A stretch of 37,396 nucleotides of DNA from a virus, in the IMG/VR virus record IMGVR_UViG_3300002242_000130, positions 1 to 37,396 of that record; one strand, written 5' to 3'. Positions within the stretch are counted from its first letter, which is position 1. Each line of letters begins with the position of its first letter. Made by a program: the position numbers and the translations under genes. Positions 19,813 to 32,698 of the stretch are shown here, one piece after another. The notes under the pieces are model-generated. The model worked only from the letters and a program-made list of their open reading frames with translations, was not told the DNA's origin and ran no database searches.

Positions 19813-22800
19813 ATGGCAGAAGATCTAGAAGTAGAAGAGTTTGTAGAAGATAATAATCAAGCTGACTCACCGTGTCCGGATTGTCCTGATGGAAGTTCAC
19901 CAGGAAGAGATCCAGATGGTAATTGTTTACCATGTGCTCCGGAAGGAACCGTAATGACTAGAGATGAACGCGGACAAGAAGTTAGTGTTAAAAATCAAAG
20001 TGTAGCGGATGAAATAGAAGGGAAAAAAGCTTTAGCTAGACTAGACAAATCTGAAGGTGAAAAACCTGAAAATACAGCTCAAGAAGGTTTAGATGAACTA
20101 AACACGATTGTGGAAAACGTTGAGAGTAAAGTTGGGGATGATGCAGATTATGAACTAAATGACTGGGAGACAAATTTATTAGAACTTTCTACTATGCAAG
20201 ATGAAGAAGGTTCTACTGTTGTTTTAAGTAATGGAGAAAAGGTTTATAACCCATTGAACGAAATAAATCAAACTAAACTAAAACAAGTTATTTCACAGGC
20301 TTCAAATGGAGTTGCGGTTCCTGCTTCTCCCGAAAATCTAGGTTTATTAGAAGGTTATGGGTATACTTTTATTGAAATAACACCTGAACTTAGACAAGCA
20401 GGTGTAACTTATGAATATATATTAGAATTAGGTAATATAAATAACTCTCCTAATAAAGTTGAAAAAATTCAAACAACTAGTTCTTCAGAAGACCAACAAA
20501 AACCTTTAACTTCGCAGGGAGTACAACCTAGTGAGTTAAGATCACAAAGTGAAGGTTTTCAAGAAGATATTCAAAGTCAACTTCCTCAACCAAGCGAAGA
20601 AGAGGTTACTGCTAATTTAGATATTTTAGCTTCAACTCAGCAGATGACTGAGAACGAAAAGTGGTTTATGATACAGAACAATGTTGGAAAAATAAATGAT
20701 TATCGTCAAGAAGAAGGGAATGAAGCTATAATTGTAGATCCTGATGGAAATATTATTGGTATGGCTGGTGTTCCTTTGGGAAATAATAATGTTCCTCAAA
20801 GAATGCCTGCTAATGTTTTAGACGAGATTACTCAATTATTAATTAGTGGTCCTGACGTTATACAACCCAGTAGAGAAACATTGTATCATTTAGGGTTAGT
20901 ACAGTTTCAAGATGAAACATATATGAGTGATAAAGACAGAGAAGCTGAAGAAGAAATGCTTACTAGTCAAACTGGATTCACTGAAACCCCACAAGAAGGA
21001 TTAAATAACTTGCTCATAGAAACTTTAAATCAACCTAGATTTGAAGGAGTACTTCGATATGTTATAGACAATGACGCACAGGTTACTAGAAGAGATAATC
21101 TTTATAATATAATGGGTGTTGATGAAGAAGGAGAATTAACTAAATCAAGACTTGATGGTACTACACCTATGTTTAATGGTAAACCTTTTAATCCTGATAA
21201 AGGTACTCCATTACAGCAAGCAGCTTATGTTCAGCAAAAACAAACCTTAAATGCAATAGAAAAGTCTTTTCTTCCTGTTACTTGGGACTTAGAATATGCA
21301 GCAGACATGAAGTATAAAATGGCTCATGCTTCAAGCGTAGAAGAATTTGAAAATTTACAATCAGAATGGAAATCATATATTCAAAAACAAGATGTTGATG
21401 GTATTGAAGAAGACACCGAAATGCTTTATAATCCGCAAACTGGTAACTTATTTAGAAGAGATGAAATAGATCCGGAAGATATTACTAAGTATAATCTTAT
21501 TCCATTAGAACAATTTGTACGATCAGAATATGCTTTCACTGATGAAGATCAACTACTCGAAAACATCATGGATCAATCCTTTGATTTAATTGCTGCTGCA
21601 CAGCTAATGTCCGAATCAGATAATTTTGGATCTCAAATGACTGCATGGAATAGAGATCTCATAGGTGTAATTAATAAAATAGCAGACCAAGGAAGTTTAG
21701 ATGGATTAAAGACGGACAAGAGGTCTCCATTTATAGGCAAATTAAAAAAGTTTCATTTTCCTGACAGTCCAATTGAACACCAATGGAATAACTTAGTAAA
21801 CAAACTAACAGTTACATCTAGAGCTTATTTAATGAACTTTGATCCATTAACCTTAGAAAGAGATGGTACAGCAGATGGTTTTACAGATAGAGCTGCTGAA
21901 TGGTTAGGAGTGGATAACGTATCTCCTGATGAAGAAAAAACTGTCTGGGCTAATCATTTTCAAGAAGATTTTCCAGAGTTATGGAACAGTATGACTAAGG
22001 TGGAAAGAGATGCTTTTTATGAAAGTAGCGCATGGAGAAGCTTTGGACAAGGAAGTTTTGATTTTGCAATTATAGCCGCAGAGTTTTTATTAACGAGAAA
22101 GTTAGTTGGCGGCACTTTAACTAGAGTGCTTTACGGAGACGCAAAATATGGTTATACAGGTTTAAGAGGAATAGCTACTCAAGCTAAAACTGGAAGTAGT
22201 TACAGCGCTTTAGCAACAAAAGTTGGAGCTGGTAACGGTGGTAAAGCTACTAAAAGTATGATTGACTGGAGCATGTATTATGCTGAAGAAGTAGGTATTG
22301 TAGCAGCTAATGATGTTATATGGCAGGAAGAAATGAATCCATTTTATTTTCCTATAGGTATCGCTACTATGAGAACGGTATTGAATAGAGCTCCTGCTGG
22401 TTTCTTATCTAAGCTAGATGATCCTAAGTGGGTTAAAGCTAATCCTGCAAAAGCCAATCAGTTAAAAAAAATACATAACGTATTAAAGAAAACAGGGTTT
22501 CCAGCTACATTAGAAGAAGGTGCGGTTCAAGTGAAAGCTATAGGTACTGGTGCTTTTACTTTAAAAACTGGTGGTTTATTTGAAGGACTTGGGCACGCTG
22601 TTGAAAACCCAGATGATTCTGGTTTGATTGCGGAAGCTTTTTTAAACTTTGTTGATCCTAAAGATTGGGCTAATACAATGGGGTTTTTAGTTGCTAATAG
22701 ATTACTTTTACCAGACAAAGCTAATAGGGCAATGTTTAACAAATTTAAACTCGATGCTAAAAGATTATTAGATGTTGATAGAAGAGGCTTTGCAAGTACT

Positions 22801-25800
22801 CTAGGTGGCAGTAGAAAGTCTTTCTATGATCCTAAAACTCCTTTAGGCACTAGAACCAACAATATTGATAAAGCGGCTTCTAAAGCAAAGAAAAACAGAG
22901 GACTTAATATTGGTGATGAGAGTAATTCTGATAGAATTTACGAAAGCATTAAAAACGATTTTAAACAATTAGGGATTTCAATTAGTGAGATAAAAGGGAA
23001 AAGTTTGCAAGAGATTGGAGAACTAATGAGATCTAAAGCTAACCAGAAAAATAATGGAGAAGGGGCTAGTAATCCTGACATAGCGGCAATGACAAAAATT
23101 TACGACTTCTTACAAGGTGGAGGAGTTACTGTTGAAAATCTAGTTAATCACCATGAAATTAGCACTGCGCAAAACTTTTCTCACGCTGTTAACGAGACTC
23201 AAGCAGCTATACACTTGTATGATAAAAGCACTGCTGCAGGAGCATATGATCCAGATGACTTTGCAAAAACAGCTGTTGGCCAAAAACAAGGATGGGTACC
23301 TAATTCTAGAGAGTTACAGTTTATAGGTAATACTAGTAACAACGCTTTAAAAGTAATGTTAACAGAAGCAGGGTGGACTGAAACTCAGATTTCACAATGG
23401 TTAGGTAAGTGGACTGCTGTAGCGGAAAATATACAAGCTGCCACTTTTAGATATGGTTTTAAAGCTGGTTCTCCAGAACAACAACAGTATATAAGAAATG
23501 AGCAGAAATATACTAATTTAGTAGATATATTAGATGTAGCTAAAGAAGAATTTAAAAACAACCCTAATAGTGTTAATACCTTAAACCTTGAAATGGCTCA
23601 AGGAAAAGTTGATGCTCAACTACAGAAACAAATTGACTTAATAACTGAACAAAAGAAAAAGACGAGAGAAGAAGGAGAAAAGCTACTTGACAAAGCCCAA
23701 GAAGAAGGAACAGAGGTTTATGAAACTACAGCAGAAGTAGTAGCAAGAATTGATGAATTAGCTGCAAACGACCCAGCTATGGCACCAGAGTTAATGCGCT
23801 TAAAAAGAAAAATTGAATATGAAAAACAATTTACTGTTGAAGATAATCAAAAACTAGATGATTTAGATTACGAAATTGAACAAGCCGATTTAGCCGGAGA
23901 TTTAGATCTTTTAAAAGATTTGCAAGCACAAAAACAATTTATAATAGATAACGCTGCAGATGTAGGTTCTAAAGGGTTCTCATTACCTAACGGTGTTAGT
24001 ATAGTTAACAAAGAGTATATCGGTAACGAACTTAAAACCATGATGAATTCGAGAATAGGTGATTGGGCTACGGGTCAACATGAAAATATTCACCATTGGG
24101 TTAATGACATACTTCGTCAAAAAGGTTTTAAAACAGCTGAAGGTAAATGGGTTAAAGGTGGTCAAGTAAAAGCTAGAGAATTTGTAAAAAAATTCAAGAA
24201 TCTTCTTACTGAACCTCAACGAGAAATAATATTACAACGTTTAAGTAAAGATGGTAGTTATCAACGAGATCCTCAGGGTAGTATAGAATGGTTAAACTAC
24301 TATGCTGAAGCTTTACTTAAAGGAGAGTTAGATTACGGTTACAATGACATTGAGCAAATGGCTGAGTTAATTGGATCAGAACTTAAAGCAGGAGCTAAAC
24401 AAATGGGTATGTCAGATGCAGAGTTTGAGTTATCTCCTGAAGGTATGATGAACTTTCTTTTGGGCTATGCTGCAGATACACGTAAAGGAGGAATGTCTTA
24501 TAGAGACAAAGTAATGGCGGTAATGGCTGGTAAAAAAGTTGATCTATCTGACAAAGACGTTAAAGAGGTTGAAGCTACAGTTGAGGATCTTGAAGGTAAA
24601 GTTATTGAATGGAGCGAAGAGTTAAAGGAATTTGAAGCTAAAAAGAAAGAATTAATAAAAGAAAAGTCTAAGACTAGTCATCAGTACATGGCTGGCGACA
24701 TGACTAAAGAAGATTATCAAGACAGAATAGATGGTTTGAATTTGAAAATCAAGTTAGCTAAAGATATGATTTCAAATGTTTCTGATAAAGATAGCTCGTT
24801 AGAGATAAGAATAAGAAACGCAAAGAATATGGAGATAATAAAAGATCTAAGTATTCCTCAATTTGATTCTAGAAGAGTTAGAGCTGACAACCAGTTATTT
24901 GAAGATAACCAAGGTATTTTGCAAGCAGAAAGAGCTAAATATAATCCTAATTTAGGAGAAGGTATTACTAGATCTGACTGGAACGCGGAAATATATAAGT
25001 ATTATACTGATGCTGTAAAAAGCTACAACCCTAGTAAAGGTGCTTTTTCCACTCATTTACAATCTACTTTAAGCCACAAGTTAGGAAATTATATTGATAA
25101 AAACCTAGACAAACTAACTAAAGAATCCGGTGATTACTTTCCACAAAGACCTGATCAGCAGGCGAGTTCTAGTGGTGAAGAAATGACAAATGCGTGGGAT
25201 ATAACCATGCAGCAAATTGATAAAGGTTATCTAACTGAAGGTTCTCCTGAGTATACTTTAGACTACAATATTGAGGGACAAAAAGGTTCTATATCAAAAG
25301 GAAACAATAGAGATCGAAGTCTTTCCGGTGTAGACGCTGAAAAAATATTATCTGAAGAATTTAATATGAATACCAATGAAATGATTGGTATGGTAAATGA
25401 GGCTTTAGGTAAATTAGGTTTGGAAGATTTTACAATGAAAGGCTTGCATACTGAAAAAATAACTCTGGAAGATGGAACTGAAGTTCCTTTAGGAAGAGCT
25501 TTAGAAATGAGTATTAGAGAACAGTTCGGACCAGAAATACACACAGCTAAAGATGGCGGATTAAAATGGGGAGCAAAAGAAAAAGAACATTGGAATACTT
25601 TTTTAAATGAACATTGGGAAACTATATATCAACTTCTACCTGAAAATTTAACTAGTGAATCTTTTACTACTAGAGGAGGTCAAACTACGGGAGTAAGAAA
25701 TGTATTGCTAAACGAATTTTATACTAAAAAAGATAGAGTAGGGGCAGGACAAGGTTTTTCTGATAAAGGAGTTGGTTCTAAATGGCAAGAAAAAAATCCT

Positions 25801-28800
25801 GTTGATTTTAAAAGTAATATAGATAAAGAAAATTTTATTGCTTTCGTAATGGGAGGTAAGAATAGATTGGAAGCTATATTAAATGAAATGGCTAAGACAA
25901 CTGGTAATCAACTTGCTAGACAAACTAAAGATGCTGCAACCCAACAAAAAATGTTACAACAAGGTATAGATAAGCCCGAATATGAAAAATATACTGAACA
26001 GCAATTCTTAAATAATATTGAGGCTCAGTTGAGGTCTGGTATGAGTAAGATGGCTGATTCTGAAGGAAGAGTATTGTTTTCAGAAGAAATGCAACAGAAA
26101 GGTTATGATGAAGTAGCTGAAGCAGTATTGGTATTCAATGATTACAACCAAAAACATAAACCTGTAAAAGGTAAAAATTTCTTTGAATATTACAGGGATT
26201 GGAAAGAAGGTGATCGTGAAAATATTCCAGACTCCATGTTAGCAGATATAATGCAAGTGGATATGGATATATTACAGAAAACTCAAACAAAAGCAGGTTC
26301 TAAAAGATTTGGACAAAAGTTTACTGAGTTTGTAGGTGAGGAAGAAAACATAAAAAATGTTGGGGCTAACTTCAATAGAAATACAACTGAAGTAAAAAGC
26401 ATGCTCAAGCGTCTTGATAATCAAAAAGCAACATTATACTCAGAGAAAGATGGTAAGAAAGAATGGGATGAAGACCGATTAAAAAGATTTAATAAAACAC
26501 ACCAAGAGTTTTTCGAGTTCGTAATGACTTCTTTTCCTGAATTAAATAAATTAACTCAAAAAACAGGAAATAGATATGACATAACTAAGGGTAAAGAAAT
26601 GATTACTCAGATGTTTGGTATCGGTGATAGAACAAGTGGAAATAAAGAAGTTGGTTTATGGTCTGAGTGGTTTAAACCTGAAAACTTTAAAGAAGCTTTA
26701 GATAATCCTAATGTATCTCAAGAAGCTAAAGATTATTTCAACGCTATTGATTGGAGTCAAGTAACCGCTAATAACATAGGAGCATTTGGTAAAATAAAAA
26801 GTATTTTACAAGGAACTTATGATTCAAAAACAGGAGAGTTAAAAACCAAACCTAGTGCTGATCAACAAGAAAAAATTAACGCTGTTGCTAAAGAACTTAA
26901 ACCTGAAGCCCAACAAGCTTTAGGAAATCTTTATAAGTTTTGGGCAACAATGAAAAATGATTTTGTTGTAAGTAAAAACAATGGTGGTAAAGGTGATATT
27001 GCTGAATTAGAAAATGCTTTAAGTTTTGTTAAACATCTAGAACAATTCAACTCTAATTTAGTTTATGGACCAAGATCAATGTACAATACTAAATATTTCT
27101 ATGTTACTGAAGGATATCAAGATTTTAGCGTAGACAATCCTATTTATAAAGAAAGATATGAAGATGTATTGTATCAATATAGAGATGTTGATGCTACTCA
27201 ACCAATTAAGATCGGAAAGAAAACATATGACAACTTATTTAAATATGCTGAATACGCCGCTAAGGAATGGGCTAAGTTTAAAGGAGAACATGTATACGAT
27301 TCATCTAATCAATCTTATAAAGGTTATGTTGATATATTAAAAGGAAACACAGCTGATGCTCTTAAAACTAAAGATTGGGACTTAATGGTTCAAGTAATGT
27401 CTCCAAAAAGAAATTTAGATCGCGTCGATAATCTTTATGGTAGTACTTCTCCTTATAATTATACTAGGTTTGTTTCTGAAAATAAATCTATATTAGAAAA
27501 CTATATAGATCCAATGACAGGTGAAACTCTATTAGAAACTGTTAGAATGAAAGCTGGAGAGCGCGTGGATGAGATAATGAACAGAGATGTAGATATACAA
27601 AAACTACTTGAAAACCCAGCTTTTAAAGATAAATTTGATGTTGTAGCTGTTACAGATGCATTTAATAAATATGATCCTACCTCAGTTGCGTTAGTAGAAA
27701 CTTTACTAAACGCTATTAAAGATCCAAAAGCTGCAGAAGCTAGTACTGAAGCAGCTAACACTCAAGCTACAGAAAGACTTAATGAGATGGGTGTTGATGT
27801 TGAAATAAAGGGTTTAACTGAAACTGAAGCTAACCACGTAACACAAATGAGTGAGGAGTTTCAAAATCATGAAGGTACTGTTGATAAAAAACTAGGTATA
27901 CCAACTAAAGAAGTTAACGCCGAAGTTGGAGTGTTAAATGGGGTAATGGAAGAAGTTACTGCGGAAATGTCAGATTTTGATGATGTTTTAGGTTCGTCAG
28001 ATACTATTATAAAATATACTACAACAGACGGAGTTGTACACGAAATTACTCAAGATGTATTTAATGCTAAAAAATTAGAAATAGAAAGTGCTGAAGATTT
28101 TGTAGCAGACTCATGGGATTATGAAGGTTTTAATAGCATGGACACGGCTGTTGAAGGACCAGATTTTCAATATCAATTAGATACATGGAATAGACTAGTT
28201 GAAGAAGGAAGACCAGAAGACTACTTTTTAATTACTGCAAGAGGTCCAGCAGGAAGAGCAAACTATGTTGAGTGGATGAACAACCACGGGTTTAAAGGTT
28301 TTACTGAAGACAATTTAATTACTACTCAAGGAACATTAATTGAAGGGGCTAGTGATCACGTATGGGATAACAAAAAGGTAATCATGGGGTTATTAGAACT
28401 AGTTTCTGGTCAACGTGGTAAGTTTTATAATAAAATAAATATATCTGAAGATTATAAACCTACTATAGAAGCTTTTGAAGTAGCTTTAGATCAGTTAGGT
28501 TTAGCTGGAGAACAAAGACACATTATTGAAGAAAGTTCTGAACTGTTTGATTTAGAAGACAAAACTAATGCTGTAGATATACTGCTAGAAGAAAGCTTTG
28601 GAATAGACAGAATTAAAGAATACTCTGCAGTAAGAGCTCATCAAATAGGAGAAAAATCTGGAAAAAGAACCGGTTTATTAGGACCTCAGTATCAAGATAT
28701 GGAAGGTTTATATTACGGGCTTATTTCTCCTGGTAAAAAAGGAGAAGCTCAATTAAAATACTTAAATGAAAACCATTTAGATGTTTATCTTGATAATCAA

Positions 28801-30711
28801 ATGAAGCATGAAGGAGAAACTATAAGAATGGGTAAAGAGTATAATGTTCTTAGAGAAGAAAATAATACTATATTAAAAGACAAAGATAAAGTTCTAAAAT
28901 TAAAAGGAGTAGGTACTGAATATACATTAGAAGATGTTATCAGGATCGGCGCATGGCAAGCTGTAGGTACAGAAATAAATGGAATCGCAAAGTCTGATTT
29001 AACAGCTATAAATAATTATTTGTCAGAACATCCAGAAATAGCTGCTTTTTCTCAAAGATTAATAGGTGTTAGTAAATTAGGTACATATGAAGGTATGACT
29101 AATGACGCTTCTTGGAAAGCTGGTAGTATTGAAGGGGATTTATACAGCACTCTTAGAGGCTCAGTTAGAGATAATGTATTTCAACCTTTCTATATAGCAG
29201 ATGCATTGCTTTTCCCAGAAAGAAATGAAAACAAAATACGAGTAGCTAGAGGAAATGCTTTTGGAGATGAATTCAACACTATGAGACAAACCATGAGAGA
29301 TGGAACTAATAGACTCGGTCAAGGTAATATTCAAGATCAAAAGTATTTAAATTATTTTACACAATGGCAACAAGCAGTGATGAGTGTAAATCTACGATCT
29401 ATGGCAATGCAAACCACTTCTCTTACTAACTTTATTAATGTATCAGATAATAACATATTTGCAGCAGGTAAAGCGTTTGCTAATCAACCTAGATATTGGA
29501 AAGATGTTGCAGAAATTTGGAATTCAGATTGGGCAAAATCTAGAAGAGGTGGTGGAAATGAAATAGCTTCAGCAGAGATAATTGAACTATTGAAAACGTC
29601 TAAAGGTAATAAAATGCAAACCTTTTTAAATTACATGTTAGAAAAAGGGTATAAACCTGCTCAAATGGGTGATATTGCAGCTATAGTTTTTGGTGGCGCG
29701 CCGTTGTTACAGAATAGAACTCAAACTTATGTTAAAAAAGGAATGAGTTATGAGGATGCGAGAGCTAAAGCGATGAAAGATGTGTACAAAAAAGTACAAC
29801 GAAATCAGCAATCTCGTCTACCAGGTTTCTTAGGTAATTGGCAGAAGAGCATGAGAGGTAGAATCTTTGGTGGATTTCATACTACACAGTTTGCTTATGC
29901 TAGAGAAATAGATAAATCTTTAAGAGATATAAAAAATGGAAGAGGTAGTTTAAAAGAAAATCTATCTAAAGTTTTAAATTATGGAGTTCTTCAACCTGCA
30001 GCTTTTGCAGCTGGACAAGGAGGTTTATTCATGCTATTAGCTAGTGGATATAGTGAAGAAGAAGCTAAAGAAATGATGTTGCAAACTGGTAGAACAGCAG
30101 GCGGAAACGTTATGCAAGGTTTTGGAATGCCAGGAATACTATTAGATGTTTCACTACAAGCAGGTGAAGAGCTTTATAAACAATCTCAAAAAGAAGGTAC
30201 ATGGCCTGGTCCTGATTATTCTAAAGCTTTAATGAAGTTTTTAAATTTATCTCCAGCAATAGGAGGTAAACTAAAACAATTTTTAGGAGCTGCTAATGCT
30301 ATTAAGTATCAAACTAGTGTTACTAGAAATGGTAAGAAATATACTATAGATTATAAAGTTTACGATCCTAATAATCCTAAATTTGAAGCTGCAACTAAAA
30401 GTCTTCAGGCTATTTTTAATATTCCGGCAGAGAACTTTAGAAAACTATATGCCAACGCTTGGGCTGTAGGTTTGAAAACTATGGATCCAGCAGCTTGGGA
30501 TGCAGGAGATATTTTAAAAGTTAATGCTCTTATAATGGGCTGGCCAGAGTGGCAAGTTACTAATCAAGCTGATAAAGATGCTAAAAGAGCTTCAGAGAAA
30601 AAACAAATATTAGAAGAAAATTCTGAGCAAATGATGGAAGATAGATTTAATAAAGATAATTGGGGAGACAAAGACGATAAAGACCCTTTTGACAAAGCAG
30701 ATAACTGGTAA
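19813..30711 (+). CDS. Giant polyvalent virion protein (zincin-, sigma- and HAD-like parts)
   Basis: This 3632-aa chain is the largest gene here and the third of the probable ejection proteins. In order it shows: a Cys pair motif near the N-terminus (CPDC at 21-24 and CLPC at 38-41), possibly zinc-binding; Glu/Gln-rich helices; a zincin-like site HENIH at 1423-1427, preceded by an INKE-type strand and followed by a helix with NYYAEALL that could give the third ligand; a coiled coil (about 1575-1625); a sigma-region-2-like segment around 1737-1760 (SYNPSKGAFSTHLQSTLSHK); a HAD-like domain (DFDD at 2721-2724, LITAR at 2806-2810, SED at 2878-2880); and a conserved C-terminal region (about 3185-3420, with LRSMAMQTTSLTNFINVSDN and a hydrophobic segment near 3390-3412). 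I recall the HAD and C-terminal blocks from polyvalent proteins of marine phages. It is probably packaged and injected. N4 gp50 has similar length, but I could not find its polymerase motifs. Confidence 0.72.
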   Translation: MAEDLEVEEFVEDNNQADSPCPDCPDGSSPGRDPDGNCLPCAPEGTVMTRDERGQEVSVKNQSVADEIEGKKALARLDKSEGEKPENTAQEGLDELNTIVENVESKVGDDADYELNDWETNLLELSTMQDEEGSTVVLSNGEKVYNPLNEINQTKLKQVISQASNGVAVPASPENLGLLEGYGYTFIEITPELRQAGVTYEYILELGNINNSPNKVEKIQTTSSSEDQQKPLTSQGVQPSELRSQSEGFQEDIQSQLPQPSEEEVTANLDILASTQQMTENEKWFMIQNNVGKINDYRQEEGNEAIIVDPDGNIIGMAGVPLGNNNVPQRMPANVLDEITQLLISGPDVIQPSRETLYHLGLVQFQDETYMSDKDREAEEEMLTSQTGFTETPQEGLNNLLIETLNQPRFEGVLRYVIDNDAQVTRRDNLYNIMGVDEEGELTKSRLDGTTPMFNGKPFNPDKGTPLQQAAYVQQKQTLNAIEKSFLPVTWDLEYAADMKYKMAHASSVEEFENLQSEWKSYIQKQDVDGIEEDTEMLYNPQTGNLFRRDEIDPEDITKYNLIPLEQFVRSEYAFTDEDQLLENIMDQSFDLIAAAQLMSESDNFGSQMTAWNRDLIGVINKIADQGSLDGLKTDKRSPFIGKLKKFHFPDSPIEHQWNNLVNKLTVTSRAYLMNFDPLTLERDGTADGFTDRAAEWLGVDNVSPDEEKTVWANHFQEDFPELWNSMTKVERDAFYESSAWRSFGQGSFDFAIIAAEFLLTRKLVGGTLTRVLYGDAKYGYTGLRGIATQAKTGSSYSALATKVGAGNGGKATKSMIDWSMYYAEEVGIVAANDVIWQEEMNPFYFPIGIATMRTVLNRAPAGFLSKLDDPKWVKANPAKANQLKKIHNVLKKTGFPATLEEGAVQVKAIGTGAFTLKTGGLFEGLGHAVENPDDSGLIAEAFLNFVDPKDWANTMGFLVANRLLLPDKANRAMFNKFKLDAKRLLDVDRRGFASTLGGSRKSFYDPKTPLGTRTNNIDKAASKAKKNRGLNIGDESNSDRIYESIKNDFKQLGISISEIKGKSLQEIGELMRSKANQKNNGEGASNPDIAAMTKIYDFLQGGGVTVENLVNHHEISTAQNFSHAVNETQAAIHLYDKSTAAGAYDPDDFAKTAVGQKQGWVPNSRELQFIGNTSNNALKVMLTEAGWTETQISQWLGKWTAVAENIQAATFRYGFKAGSPEQQQYIRNEQKYTNLVDILDVAKEEFKNNPNSVNTLNLEMAQGKVDAQLQKQIDLITEQKKKTREEGEKLLDKAQEEGTEVYETTAEVVARIDELAANDPAMAPELMRLKRKIEYEKQFTVEDNQKLDDLDYEIEQADLAGDLDLLKDLQAQKQFIIDNAADVGSKGFSLPNGVSIVNKEYIGNELKTMMNSRIGDWATGQHENIHHWVNDILRQKGFKTAEGKWVKGGQVKAREFVKKFKNLLTEPQREIILQRLSKDGSYQRDPQGSIEWLNYYAEALLKGELDYGYNDIEQMAELIGSELKAGAKQMGMSDAEFELSPEGMMNFLLGYAADTRKGGMSYRDKVMAVMAGKKVDLSDKDVKEVEATVEDLEGKVIEWSEELKEFEAKKKELIKEKSKTSHQYMAGDMTKEDYQDRIDGLNLKIKLAKDMISNVSDKDSSLEIRIRNAKNMEIIKDLSIPQFDSRRVRADNQLFEDNQGILQAERAKYNPNLGEGITRSDWNAEIYKYYTDAVKSYNPSKGAFSTHLQSTLSHKLGNYIDKNLDKLTKESGDYFPQRPDQQASSSGEEMTNAWDITMQQIDKGYLTEGSPEYTLDYNIEGQKGSISKGNNRDRSLSGVDAEKILSEEFNMNTNEMIGMVNEALGKLGLEDFTMKGLHTEKITLEDGTEVPLGRALEMSIREQFGPEIHTAKDGGLKWGAKEKEHWNTFLNEHWETIYQLLPENLTSESFTTRGGQTTGVRNVLLNEFYTKKDRVGAGQGFSDKGVGSKWQEKNPVDFKSNIDKENFIAFVMGGKNRLEAILNEMAKTTGNQLARQTKDAATQQKMLQQGIDKPEYEKYTEQQFLNNIEAQLRSGMSKMADSEGRVLFSEEMQQKGYDEVAEAVLVFNDYNQKHKPVKGKNFFEYYRDWKEGDRENIPDSMLADIMQVDMDILQKTQTKAGSKRFGQKFTEFVGEEENIKNVGANFNRNTTEVKSMLKRLDNQKATLYSEKDGKKEWDEDRLKRFNKTHQEFFEFVMTSFPELNKLTQKTGNRYDITKGKEMITQMFGIGDRTSGNKEVGLWSEWFKPENFKEALDNPNVSQEAKDYFNAIDWSQVTANNIGAFGKIKSILQGTYDSKTGELKTKPSADQQEKINAVAKELKPEAQQALGNLYKFWATMKNDFVVSKNNGGKGDIAELENALSFVKHLEQFNSNLVYGPRSMYNTKYFYVTEGYQDFSVDNPIYKERYEDVLYQYRDVDATQPIKIGKKTYDNLFKYAEYAAKEWAKFKGEHVYDSSNQSYKGYVDILKGNTADALKTKDWDLMVQVMSPKRNLDRVDNLYGSTSPYNYTRFVSENKSILENYIDPMTGETLLETVRMKAGERVDEIMNRDVDIQKLLENPAFKDKFDVVAVTDAFNKYDPTSVALVETLLNAIKDPKAAEASTEAANTQATERLNEMGVDVEIKGLTETEANHVTQMSEEFQNHEGTVDKKLGIPTKEVNAEVGVLNGVMEEVTAEMSDFDDVLGSSDTIIKYTTTDGVVHEITQDVFNAKKLEIESAEDFVADSWDYEGFNSMDTAVEGPDFQYQLDTWNRLVEEGRPEDYFLITARGPAGRANYVEWMNNHGFKGFTEDNLITTQGTLIEGASDHVWDNKKVIMGLLELVSGQRGKFYNKINISEDYKPTIEAFEVALDQLGLAGEQRHIIEESSELFDLEDKTNAVDILLEESFGIDRIKEYSAVRAHQIGEKSGKRTGLLGPQYQDMEGLYYGLISPGKKGEAQLKYLNENHLDVYLDNQMKHEGETIRMGKEYNVLREENNTILKDKDKVLKLKGVGTEYTLEDVIRIGAWQAVGTEINGIAKSDLTAINNYLSEHPEIAAFSQRLIGVSKLGTYEGMTNDASWKAGSIEGDLYSTLRGSVRDNVFQPFYIADALLFPERNENKIRVARGNAFGDEFNTMRQTMRDGTNRLGQGNIQDQKYLNYFTQWQQAVMSVNLRSMAMQTTSLTNFINVSDNNIFAAGKAFANQPRYWKDVAEIWNSDWAKSRRGGGNEIASAEIIELLKTSKGNKMQTFLNYMLEKGYKPAQMGDIAAIVFGGAPLLQNRTQTYVKKGMSYEDARAKAMKDVYKKVQRNQQSRLPGFLGNWQKSMRGRIFGGFHTTQFAYAREIDKSLRDIKNGRGSLKENLSKVLNYGVLQPAAFAAGQGGLFMLLASGYSEEEAKEMMLQTGRTAGGNVMQGFGMPGILLDVSLQAGEELYKQSQKEGTWPGPDYSKALMKFLNLSPAIGGKLKQFLGAANAIKYQTSVTRNGKKYTIDYKVYDPNNPKFEAATKSLQAIFNIPAENFRKLYANAWAVGLKTMDPAAWDAGDILKVNALIMGWPEWQVTNQADKDAKRASEKKQILEENSEQMMEDRFNKDNWGDKDDKDPFDKADNW

Positions 30712-30717
30712 CAACAT

Positions 30718-30996
30718 ATGAAAGTAAATGAGAATACGGAGTTAAAATTAGATTTAAAAAGCGTAATTAAAATAATAGCAATCACAGCTACATTTGTAGG
30801 TATGTATTACACTTTACAATCTGATATTGAAGAAGCTAAATCTTTACCTCCTGCGGTTATAGACAGAATTGAATATGATCTAAAACAAGAGTGGCAAACT
30901 AATCACATCATGAAACTCGAAGATGAAATAGACGAACTTAGAAGTTGGTGTAGAATAATCGATAAAGAGCTACATGTAAAAACAAAAAAGAAATGA
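30718..30996 (+). CDS. Small membrane-anchored coiled-coil protein (holin/spanin-like)
   Basis: This 92-aa protein has one clear transmembrane segment (about residues 16-33) after a short charged N-terminus, then a highly charged helical domain (KLEDEIDELRSWCRIIDKEL). Small proteins of this shape near the end of structural blocks in marine phages are often annotated as holin-like or spanin-like, but no family signature proves it. Its stop overlaps the start of the secreted 474-aa gene (ATGA), so the two are probably translated together and may act together at the envelope. Confidence 0.6.
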   Translation: MKVNENTELKLDLKSVIKIIAITATFVGMYYTLQSDIEEAKSLPPAVIDRIEYDLKQEWQTNHIMKLEDEIDELRSWCRIIDKELHVKTKKK

Positions 30997-32417
30997 AACA
31001 TTTATTAACTTTAATATTAACTTTACTTATTATATTGGGTTATTCTCAATGTGATAATGGTACTAATTATTATCCTAGCACTATATATACTCCAGCTGAT
31101 GATGTTTGGGGTTCTGCTACTAGTTGGAACTATGCAGGTGAAGTTATTAGAGTTAATGTAGTTTCTGGAGATGAATATGAATTTTCTACATGTGATGGAT
31201 TTGGAGGAGTTTTAGCTTCATATGATACACAACTTACATTAATAGATGAATCAGGTATAGTCGTAGGGTTTAATGATGATTACACAGGTTGTACAGGTTA
31301 TACTTCATATATAAAACACACAGCTACCTACACAGGTGTCTTGTATGTTCACTTGAATGAATATAACTGTGCTAGTAATTCTACTTCTACTGAAGTAATG
31401 ATATATAAAACTCCTGCTCCTACTGGAGGAGGTGGAGGTGGTGGAAACTCTAATGAAGTTACTATTGGAGATCCTAATTCTACGCTAGATGATGGTAGAG
31501 TTCCTGCTTATGGATATTATGATTATAGTTGGAGTGCTTCTATCTATACTGCTGCAGAACTTGGTGGTGTTCCTTTGAACATAGAAAAGATTAGTTGGAA
31601 TGTTACTAACGGAGCAACAATGACTATGAACAACCAAGAGATCTGGATGGCAATGACTATGGATGAGATATTTGCTGATGGTACTATGCCAGAAGATGGA
31701 GCTGGTCCATGGACACAATGGAAATTAGTATATGATGGAACTATAGATTTTAGATCTGGTTGGAATGAAGTAACATTACAAGGATTATATGGATATGATG
31801 GTATACAAAACTTATTAGTTAAAGTAGTTAACAACCATGGATCATGGGCTTCTAGTTATCCTGAATTTCAATATACAACAAAATCTAGTTCTGTAGTATA
31901 TAATTATAATGATGGTACTTTTCCTGGTCCCTTAGGTTATACTAATTCTATTAGACCTAACACTATGTTTGGTTGGCAAGGTGGAGGTAATGCTTTACCT
32001 ATAGATCTTATTTCGTTTAGTGCTGAACACTTAGGAAGTGATATACATCCTGTAGTAATCATTGATTGGCAAATTGCATCTCAAGTTAATAACGATTATT
32101 TTGAAATACAAAGAAGTGTAAATATTGAACAATGGTACACAATTGAAACTGTGACAGGAGCCGGGAATAGTAATACCCAAATGTCATATAGTGTTATAGA
32201 TACTAAACCACTGCATGGAATTTCTTATTATCGTCTGAAACAAACTGATTATGATGGACAATATGAATCGTTTCATCCTGTGTCAGTCTCAATCAGTTCA
32301 GAAGAAAAACCTATAGAAAAAGTAGTAAACTTAATGGGTCAAGAGGTTGAAGATGGATATAAAGGTATAGTAATACAGGTTTACCAAGATGGTACTTATG
32401 TAAAAAAATATAAATAA
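30993..32417 (+). CDS. Secreted protein with T9SS-type C-terminal sorting domain
   Basis: This 474-aa protein looks like a Bacteroidota surface or secreted protein carried by the phage. Residues 1-19 are a Sec signal peptide (basic start, Leu/Ile core, then GYSQ). A beta domain with several Cys spans about 20-135. A Gly7 linker (about 146-152) leads to a second beta domain (about 155-330). Residues about 335-440 match the conserved pre-CTD module of flavobacterial exported proteins (LPIDLISFSAEH, NNDYFEIQRS, GISYYRLKQTDYDGQYE). Residues about 444-474 match the type A T9SS sorting domain (VVNLMGQEVEDGYKG, then VYQDGTYVKKYK). The expected route is Sec to the periplasm, then T9SS to the cell surface. 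It is probably host-derived. Possible roles are blocking superinfection, coating infected cells or aiding release; none is proven. Confidence 0.85.
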   Translation: MKHLLTLILTLLIILGYSQCDNGTNYYPSTIYTPADDVWGSATSWNYAGEVIRVNVVSGDEYEFSTCDGFGGVLASYDTQLTLIDESGIVVGFNDDYTGCTGYTSYIKHTATYTGVLYVHLNEYNCASNSTSTEVMIYKTPAPTGGGGGGGNSNEVTIGDPNSTLDDGRVPAYGYYDYSWSASIYTAAELGGVPLNIEKISWNVTNGATMTMNNQEIWMAMTMDEIFADGTMPEDGAGPWTQWKLVYDGTIDFRSGWNEVTLQGLYGYDGIQNLLVKVVNNHGSWASSYPEFQYTTKSSSVVYNYNDGTFPGPLGYTNSIRPNTMFGWQGGGNALPIDLISFSAEHLGSDIHPVVIIDWQIASQVNNDYFEIQRSVNIEQWYTIETVTGAGNSNTQMSYSVIDTKPLHGISYYRLKQTDYDGQYESFHPVSVSISSEEKPIEKVVNLMGQEVEDGYKGIVIQVYQDGTYVKKYK

Positions 32418-32418
32418 T

Positions 32419-32622
32419 ATGGGACATAGAAATAAAAAAATGGAAGGAGACTGGGGAAATTTTCTTAAAAGAAAAACTCATGGCGTTGAAATTGATGGAA
32501 AAGAATATCAAATGAAAGCATATAAAATACCAAGAAGTAAAAAAGCAAAGTCTAAAGGAAAATTAGGATTGTTTGGTATAAAAGATCCCGTACATAGAGA
32601 AATGTATAGAAATATAAAGTAG
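32419..32622 (+). CDS. Small basic protein, unknown
   Basis: This 67-aa, Lys/Arg-rich protein has no recognised family. It has no signal peptide or membrane segment. A central KTHGVEIDGKEYQMKAYKIP reads like a short beta-hairpin, with a Lys-rich stretch (RSKKAKSKGK) after it. It starts 1 base after the secreted-protein stop and is the last gene of the + strand module. Nucleic-acid or virion binding is possible from charge alone. Confidence 0.55.
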   Translation: MGHRNKKMEGDWGNFLKRKTHGVEIDGKEYQMKAYKIPRSKKAKSKGKLGLFGIKDPVHREMYRNIK

Positions 32623-32665: not shown

Positions 32666-32698
32666 AAAAAGGGGATCTCAATACGAGGTCCCCTTTTT
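32666..32698. terminator. Bidirectional terminator between converging operons
   Basis: A 14-bp stem (32666-32679 with 32685-32698, one T-G wobble, 5-base loop) has a GGGGA/TCCCC core flanked by A5 on the left and T5 on the right, so it reads as an intrinsic terminator on both strands. It lies 43 bases after the last + strand gene and 19 bases past the stop of the last - strand gene. Confidence 0.88.

Follow-up and report, generated by a model that had tools for sequence, protein, structure and literature searches.

Phage-encoded cargo for the type IX secretion system (T9SS) is already known. In Cryophage, cargo proteins with a recognised type A domain (an endoglucanase, a GH39 protein and a PA14 protein) vary among otherwise similar phages, and the authors of that work also propose surface effects or superinfection exclusion (PMC7468147, Bellas et al. 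2020). Proteins with T9SS domains have been located near crAss-like BACON genes in phages as well (PMC6949934). P. gingivalis phages encode Q-rule secreted proteins thought to modify the host surface (PMC10367356), the text of that paper making no mention of T9SS or type IX. The locus described here shares with Cryophage the presence of phage genes for putative Bacteroidota T9SS-type cargo that are variable between similar phages. Unlike in Cryophage, the product has a C-terminal tail outside all models and beta domains that do not look enzymatic. It also has a Bacteroidetes Q-rule signal peptide, as the P. gingivalis phage proteins do. The view of the first-pass annotation that such cargo is unusual in a phage has to be tempered, given the Cryophage type A cargo, the crAss-like BACON neighbours and the 63 IMG/VR loci encoding the FNIII-like module found in this protein, which is also common in Bacteroidota. 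What appears to be new is the short tail, which has no annotation, along with its distribution and the conserved slot that the gene occupies.

The window, that is, the whole stretch of DNA analysed, corresponds to a 37,396-base virus record with terminase, portal and structural genes. On the + strand, the structural genes are followed by a 3632-aa protein, the membrane protein TM92, the putative cargo protein and a basic protein (g67) (Table 1). Genes for a class II ribonucleotide reductase (RNR) and other nucleotide-metabolism functions lie 3' of this late operon on the - strand. The 3632-aa protein (19813-30711), which lacks a Pfam match, closes the structural genes, and in Elemovirus the equivalent place is also taken by a giant structural protein. 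A promoter scan stayed at chance level. The match of TM92 to phrog_20984 is weak, and its single membrane span is accompanied by a charged, coiled-coil-like part; a role in lysis is possible for this protein at the end of the structural operon. Its translational coupling to the cargo gene, proposed earlier, is consistent with the ATGA overlap of stop and start codons at 30993-30996. However, this overlap is not conserved in L001-L004, because small ORFs part both genes there.

The terminase of this podovirus is closest to those of podoviruses of Flavobacterium, Cellulophaga and Tenacibaculum; therefore, the host of the phage is very probably a Bacteroidota cell. These terminase relatives infect T9SS-type Flavobacteriaceae. 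Elemovirus, related Flavobacterium/Cellulophaga podoviruses and MW202828, whose terL is 47-65% identical to that of the window phage, share with it the arrangement of portal, capsid-region and giant structural genes but are devoid of the cargo gene, with no full-length match in the phage collection and neither tail nor module in L206 and L207. Cell contamination was ruled out, since the contigs that bear the cargo gene also have terL, portal and structural genes.

Table 1. Features of the cargo locus (positions in the window)
Feature	Position	Strand	Basis or remark
TM92, 92-aa single-span membrane protein, directly upstream of cargo	30718..30996	+	phrog_20984; conserved neighbour
CDS, putative T9SS-type cargo protein, 474 aa	30993..32417	+	ORF at these coordinates; IMG/VR relatives; dN/dS
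Signal peptide, residues 1-18	30993..31046	+	signal peptidase I (SPI) cut predicted before Gln19; Bacteroidetes Q-rule; read from sequence
D1, beta domain, residues 19-142	31047..31418	+	model; bacterial relatives
Gly-rich linker, residues 143-152	31419..31448	+	sequence; low pLDDT
D2, beta domain, residues 153-333	31449..31991	+	model; bacterial relatives
FNIII-like module (LPIDL...YYRLKQTDYDGQYE), residues 335-430	31995..32282	+	model; fold match; common in Bacteroidota
Short C-terminal tail, residues 431-474 (44 residues), putative export signal	32283..32414	+	
NLMGQEV, residues 446-452, counterpart of CTD motif B / L-beta3-beta4	32328..32348	+	
Lys471, counterpart of C-terminal CTD lysine	32403..32405	+	invariant in tail alignment
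g67, 67-aa basic protein, downstream of cargo, same operon	32419..32622	+	
Terminator-like hairpin, strong, separating late operon from convergent RNR gene	32666..32698	.	-21.7 kcal/mol, z -5.0

At the protein level, the layout described by the first-pass annotation (a signal peptide, two beta domains, the LPIDL module and a C-terminal string) was confirmed by the sequence and by AlphaFold2, which models the protein as all-beta domains (pLDDT 73). The signal peptide reads MKHLLTLILTLLIILGYS followed by QC, the Q coming directly after the predicted cut. In most Bacteroidetes SPI substrates the cut exposes a Gln at +1 (the Q-rule; PMC5837995), and all 18 aligned family members have Gln19, including those that differ in the domains behind it. 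Judged by sequence and by the Q-rule, both the Sec signal peptide expected of T9SS cargo and the +1 Gln expected of a Bacteroidota SPI substrate are present. A reading as a lipoprotein was rejected, the sequence showing no lipobox before Cys20 (YSQ followed by C, with Gln at -1). This N-terminus bears on the proposal that the protein is a virion component, a tail fibre or decoration protein that attaches to the host surface by its beta domains. The gene does lie directly after the structural genes on the same strand, and phage virion proteins often have FNIII and Ig-like folds, but a conserved Sec signal peptide with a Q-rule cut would take the protein out of the cytoplasm, the site of virion assembly. 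Moreover, bacterial homologues share the layout, and related genes are placed elsewhere in other phages, as in L155-L157, L159, L163 and L166 (terL 68-76% identical), where a short-tail protein is encoded about 3 kb upstream of terL. A place in the virion is thus quite improbable.

The domains behind the signal peptide are of a kind found in bacteria. Relatives of D1 that are 55-61% identical occur in other proteins of Fluviicola/Crocinitomicaceae-type bacteria. D2, the module and the tail together make up stand-alone proteins of 352-384 aa (30-34% identity) in these bacteria, which often have several short-tail proteins per genome. The cargo protein is therefore an assembly of host-type surface parts; in this analysis the combination of D1, D2, module and tail within one protein was seen only in phages. 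It has 19 relatives in IMG/VR, and D2 is missing in L011-L014 and L018. The best fold match of the module is the FNIII of Ihog. Fold search with the full-length protein gave generic beta-sandwich matches of low TM from which no function could be read, full-length sequence search of the PDB gave chance-level matches only, and Pfam, NCBIfam and PHROG scans together with a TIGR04183 search gave no match. Pooled dN/dS values of 0.17-0.26 were obtained for all domains outside the short signal peptide. The value for the tail (0.26) is close to those of the other domains, and therefore the tail is under purifying selection and is not a decaying stump.

The first-pass annotation had treated this layout as a known mark of T9SS cargo, a claim that cannot be maintained since the tail fits no existing sorting-domain model. 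The search with TIGR04183 and PF18962 that it had suggested returned nothing for the tail, nor did any other NCBIfam or Pfam model, even at E values up to 10. The type B model TIGR04131 did not match the cargo protein (NCBIfam up to E 10), and TIGR04183, PF18962 and TIGR04131 had no match in 21 diverse tail-bearing proteins. Therefore, the tail is not recognised as that of T9SS cargo by the standard test, and a type A label would be wrong. Its length of about 44 residues compares with 75-90 for the type A C-terminal domain (CTD) and its three predicted strands with seven, and it lacks the PNP motif of the CTD start, which is invariant in the 18 type A tails compared. In a focused model of module and tail (pLDDT 92.5), a linker joins the FNIII domain to a small tail of three strands, in place of a seven-stranded Ig-like CTD fold. 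Fold search with module and tail retrieved no T9SS CTD. The tail profile retrieved chance-level matches only from the PDB; as a control, a type A profile retrieved gingipain, mirolase and other known CTDs. In the open-licence literature searched, no account of such a short tail was found.

The tail nevertheless resembles the type A CTD (TIGR04183/PF18962) in its C-terminal position, its glycine-loop motif, the Gly of motif D and its C-terminal Lys. Gly449, in the glycine-loop motif (B / L-beta3-beta4), and Lys471, the C-terminal lysine (E), are invariant. By inspection, three invariant residues can be aligned with type A motifs B, D and E: the NxxGQEV Gly, the Gly that precedes the following strand and the Lys close to the C-terminus. 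Profile-profile comparison with type A CTDs recovers motif B only, in a short and weak alignment (20 columns, probability 30%, E 6e-4). It has been demonstrated that the glycine loop and the C-terminal end are required for export in P. gingivalis (PMC11285876), and that within the translocon of F. johnsoniae the C-terminal lysine is in contact with PorV (PMC10994853).

The differences from the type A CTD could also be explained if the protein, once exported by Sec, stayed in the periplasm or at the periplasm-facing side of the outer membrane, with the tail as an ordinary extension of the FNIII domain that serves folding or oligomerisation and with no part for T9SS. The missing model match, the absence of PNP and the absence of most CTD strands would agree with such an extension. 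So would the fact that the tail is preceded by the module in 97 of 100 proteins, which makes a role within the FNIII domain possible, the figure being inflated by the many loci that were found via the module. Orthologues argue the other way: in L009 (53% over 490 residues) and in L010, a TIGR04183 CTD takes the position of the tail, with the rest of the architecture kept. The contig of L009 carries a baseplate gene and therefore comes from another phage type. Furthermore, bacterial copies of the same module are followed in most cases by type A-like CTDs, and the tail occurs with no detectable module in three bacterial proteins. It is also recognised by inspection in L338, where an 803-aa phage ORF on the - strand lacks the FNIII module but combines a signal peptide and GCTDPxxxNYNPLA-type repeats with a C-terminus that resembles the short tail. 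Retention in the periplasm is accordingly rather unlikely.

In favour of the tail as an export signal, its position in proteins is constant. A profile (A3) built from 24 tails matched 122 ORFs, from phage as well as bacterial loci. All of these matches lie within 7 residues of the stop, and shuffled sequence gave none. The tail stands at the extreme C-terminus in all 100 distinct proteins, a placement measured on loci recruited via the module or via the tail profile itself. The proteins that bear it have varied extracellular domains, including CUB, MAM, P_proprotein and choice-of-anchor domains in a sample of them, and mostly Q-rule signal peptides; a signal at the extreme C-terminus of varied proteins is what T9SS cargo displays. 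Two further loci were observed: L022, on the 17-kb virus contig G016, encodes both a short-tail protein and a TIGR04183-CTD protein (ORFs of 289 and 717 aa), and L186, located between giant-protein and RNR matches, contains an ORF of about 1042 aa with a D1-like start, the module and a type A-like CTD end.

Whole-genome searches show the tail to be lineage-restricted among bacteria, with a concentration in a single T9SS-bearing order: 2 of 296 genomes drawn from the phylum carry it, against 74 of 120 from the family of a Fluviicola MAG and 158 of 299 from the order of that MAG, with up to 12 copies per genome. SprA is present in 292 of the 299 genomes of this tail-rich order, which is therefore T9SS-bearing. 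As a test for T9SS within the order, co-occurrence with SprA is saturated at this level and hence uninformative, and four of the seven genomes with no SprA match still carry tails. Likewise, the phylum-wide search shows lineage restriction and gives no contrast for T9SS. It has been reported that CTDs are not freely interchangeable among species (PMC11285876), and the tail therefore suggests a phage host from the tail-bearing, Fluviicola-type lineage.

About a dozen other IMG/VR contigs carry the cargo gene at this position, preceded by the giant protein and TM92 and followed by RNR; two of them have no TM92 match, and some end before RNR. This synteny bears on the idea that a bacterial gene was acquired by chance and is useless to the phage. 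The parts of the protein are clearly of Bacteroidota type, as that idea would have it, but conservation of the slot in these phage contigs and purifying selection on all domains outside the short signal peptide speak against it, and we disfavour it as extremely improbable. To gauge how often the cargo gene is present, loci were also matched through RNR, and at least 80 were found; among the matches listed, RNR identity is at most 85%, seven loci reach the giant protein and none of these seven has the module or tail. In the relatives L263, L264, L273, L295, L307 and L012, other genes lie between TM92 and RNR. Reading of the sequences assigns them as glycosyltransferase-, methyltransferase- and PAP2-like, the kinds seen in more distant phages, and as small Lys-rich proteins. 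The structural operon seems to end in a variable slot for accessory genes, located between TM92 and RNR. An uncultured 635-kb phage also has module and tail.

The occupant of the slot also varies between close relatives. Between the window phage and G003, TM92 and g67 are identical proteins (dS 0.06 and 0.03) and the cargo differs by 17% (dS 0.53, dN/dS 0.23): the cargo allele has been swapped between near-identical phages by recombination. Since RNR has a dS of 0.53 too, the exchanged stretch may be wider than the cargo gene alone. In comparison with G001, by contrast, the cargo shows greater similarity than do most structural genes.

Taken together, the protein is probably a surface protein of host-type parts that T9SS exports by means of the short tail. 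The computed evidence for the host-T9SS cargo proposed by the first-pass annotation consists of the gene and its architecture, the tail/CTD exchange, the C-terminal-only placement, the motif counterparts and purifying selection, together with synteny and allele swapping. Q-rule signal peptides, the bacterial proteins that share the layout of D2, module and tail, and the tail-rich, T9SS-bearing order lend further support. What that proposal did not obtain is a match to a standard sorting model; this, the weak profile link, the three strands, the linkage of tail to module and the saturation of SprA count against it. From these data we infer T9SS recognition, a surface location and late timing. 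The cargo would be made together with the structural genes, as the last part of their operon, and moved by Sec to the periplasm, where signal peptidase I would cut before Gln19. The host T9SS would then recognise the short tail, either a reduced type A CTD relative or a mimic of that domain, in which the glycine-loop motif and C-terminal lysine are kept, and the beta domains would be put on or outside the infected cell, displayed or released. The most likely outcome would be altered surface interactions, through masking of receptors, exclusion of superinfecting phages, or attachment to cells, debris or polysaccharide. To name receptor masking or the blocking of superinfection as the function is a guess: allele swapping, domain loss and the other slot occupants fit these roles and would suit adhesion or debris binding too. 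The chances are about even that the tail constitutes a separate, undescribed class of T9SS signal, a minimal CTD of one Bacteroidota order that phages of several lineages have copied (podoviruses, other IMG/VR phages and the 635-kb phage) to place their own proteins on infected cells.

If the tail is an export signal, annotation as it stands overlooks a set of surface proteins in roughly every second genome sampled from one Bacteroidota order. A minimal signal of about 44 residues would, if this is true, offer a clean tool for finding out what SprA and PorV read in cargo. For the phages, use of the host T9SS would then be common and patterned, in the form of a swappable gene in a dedicated slot and no single curiosity, and would provide a concrete candidate for surface-acting control of superinfection in environmental phages.
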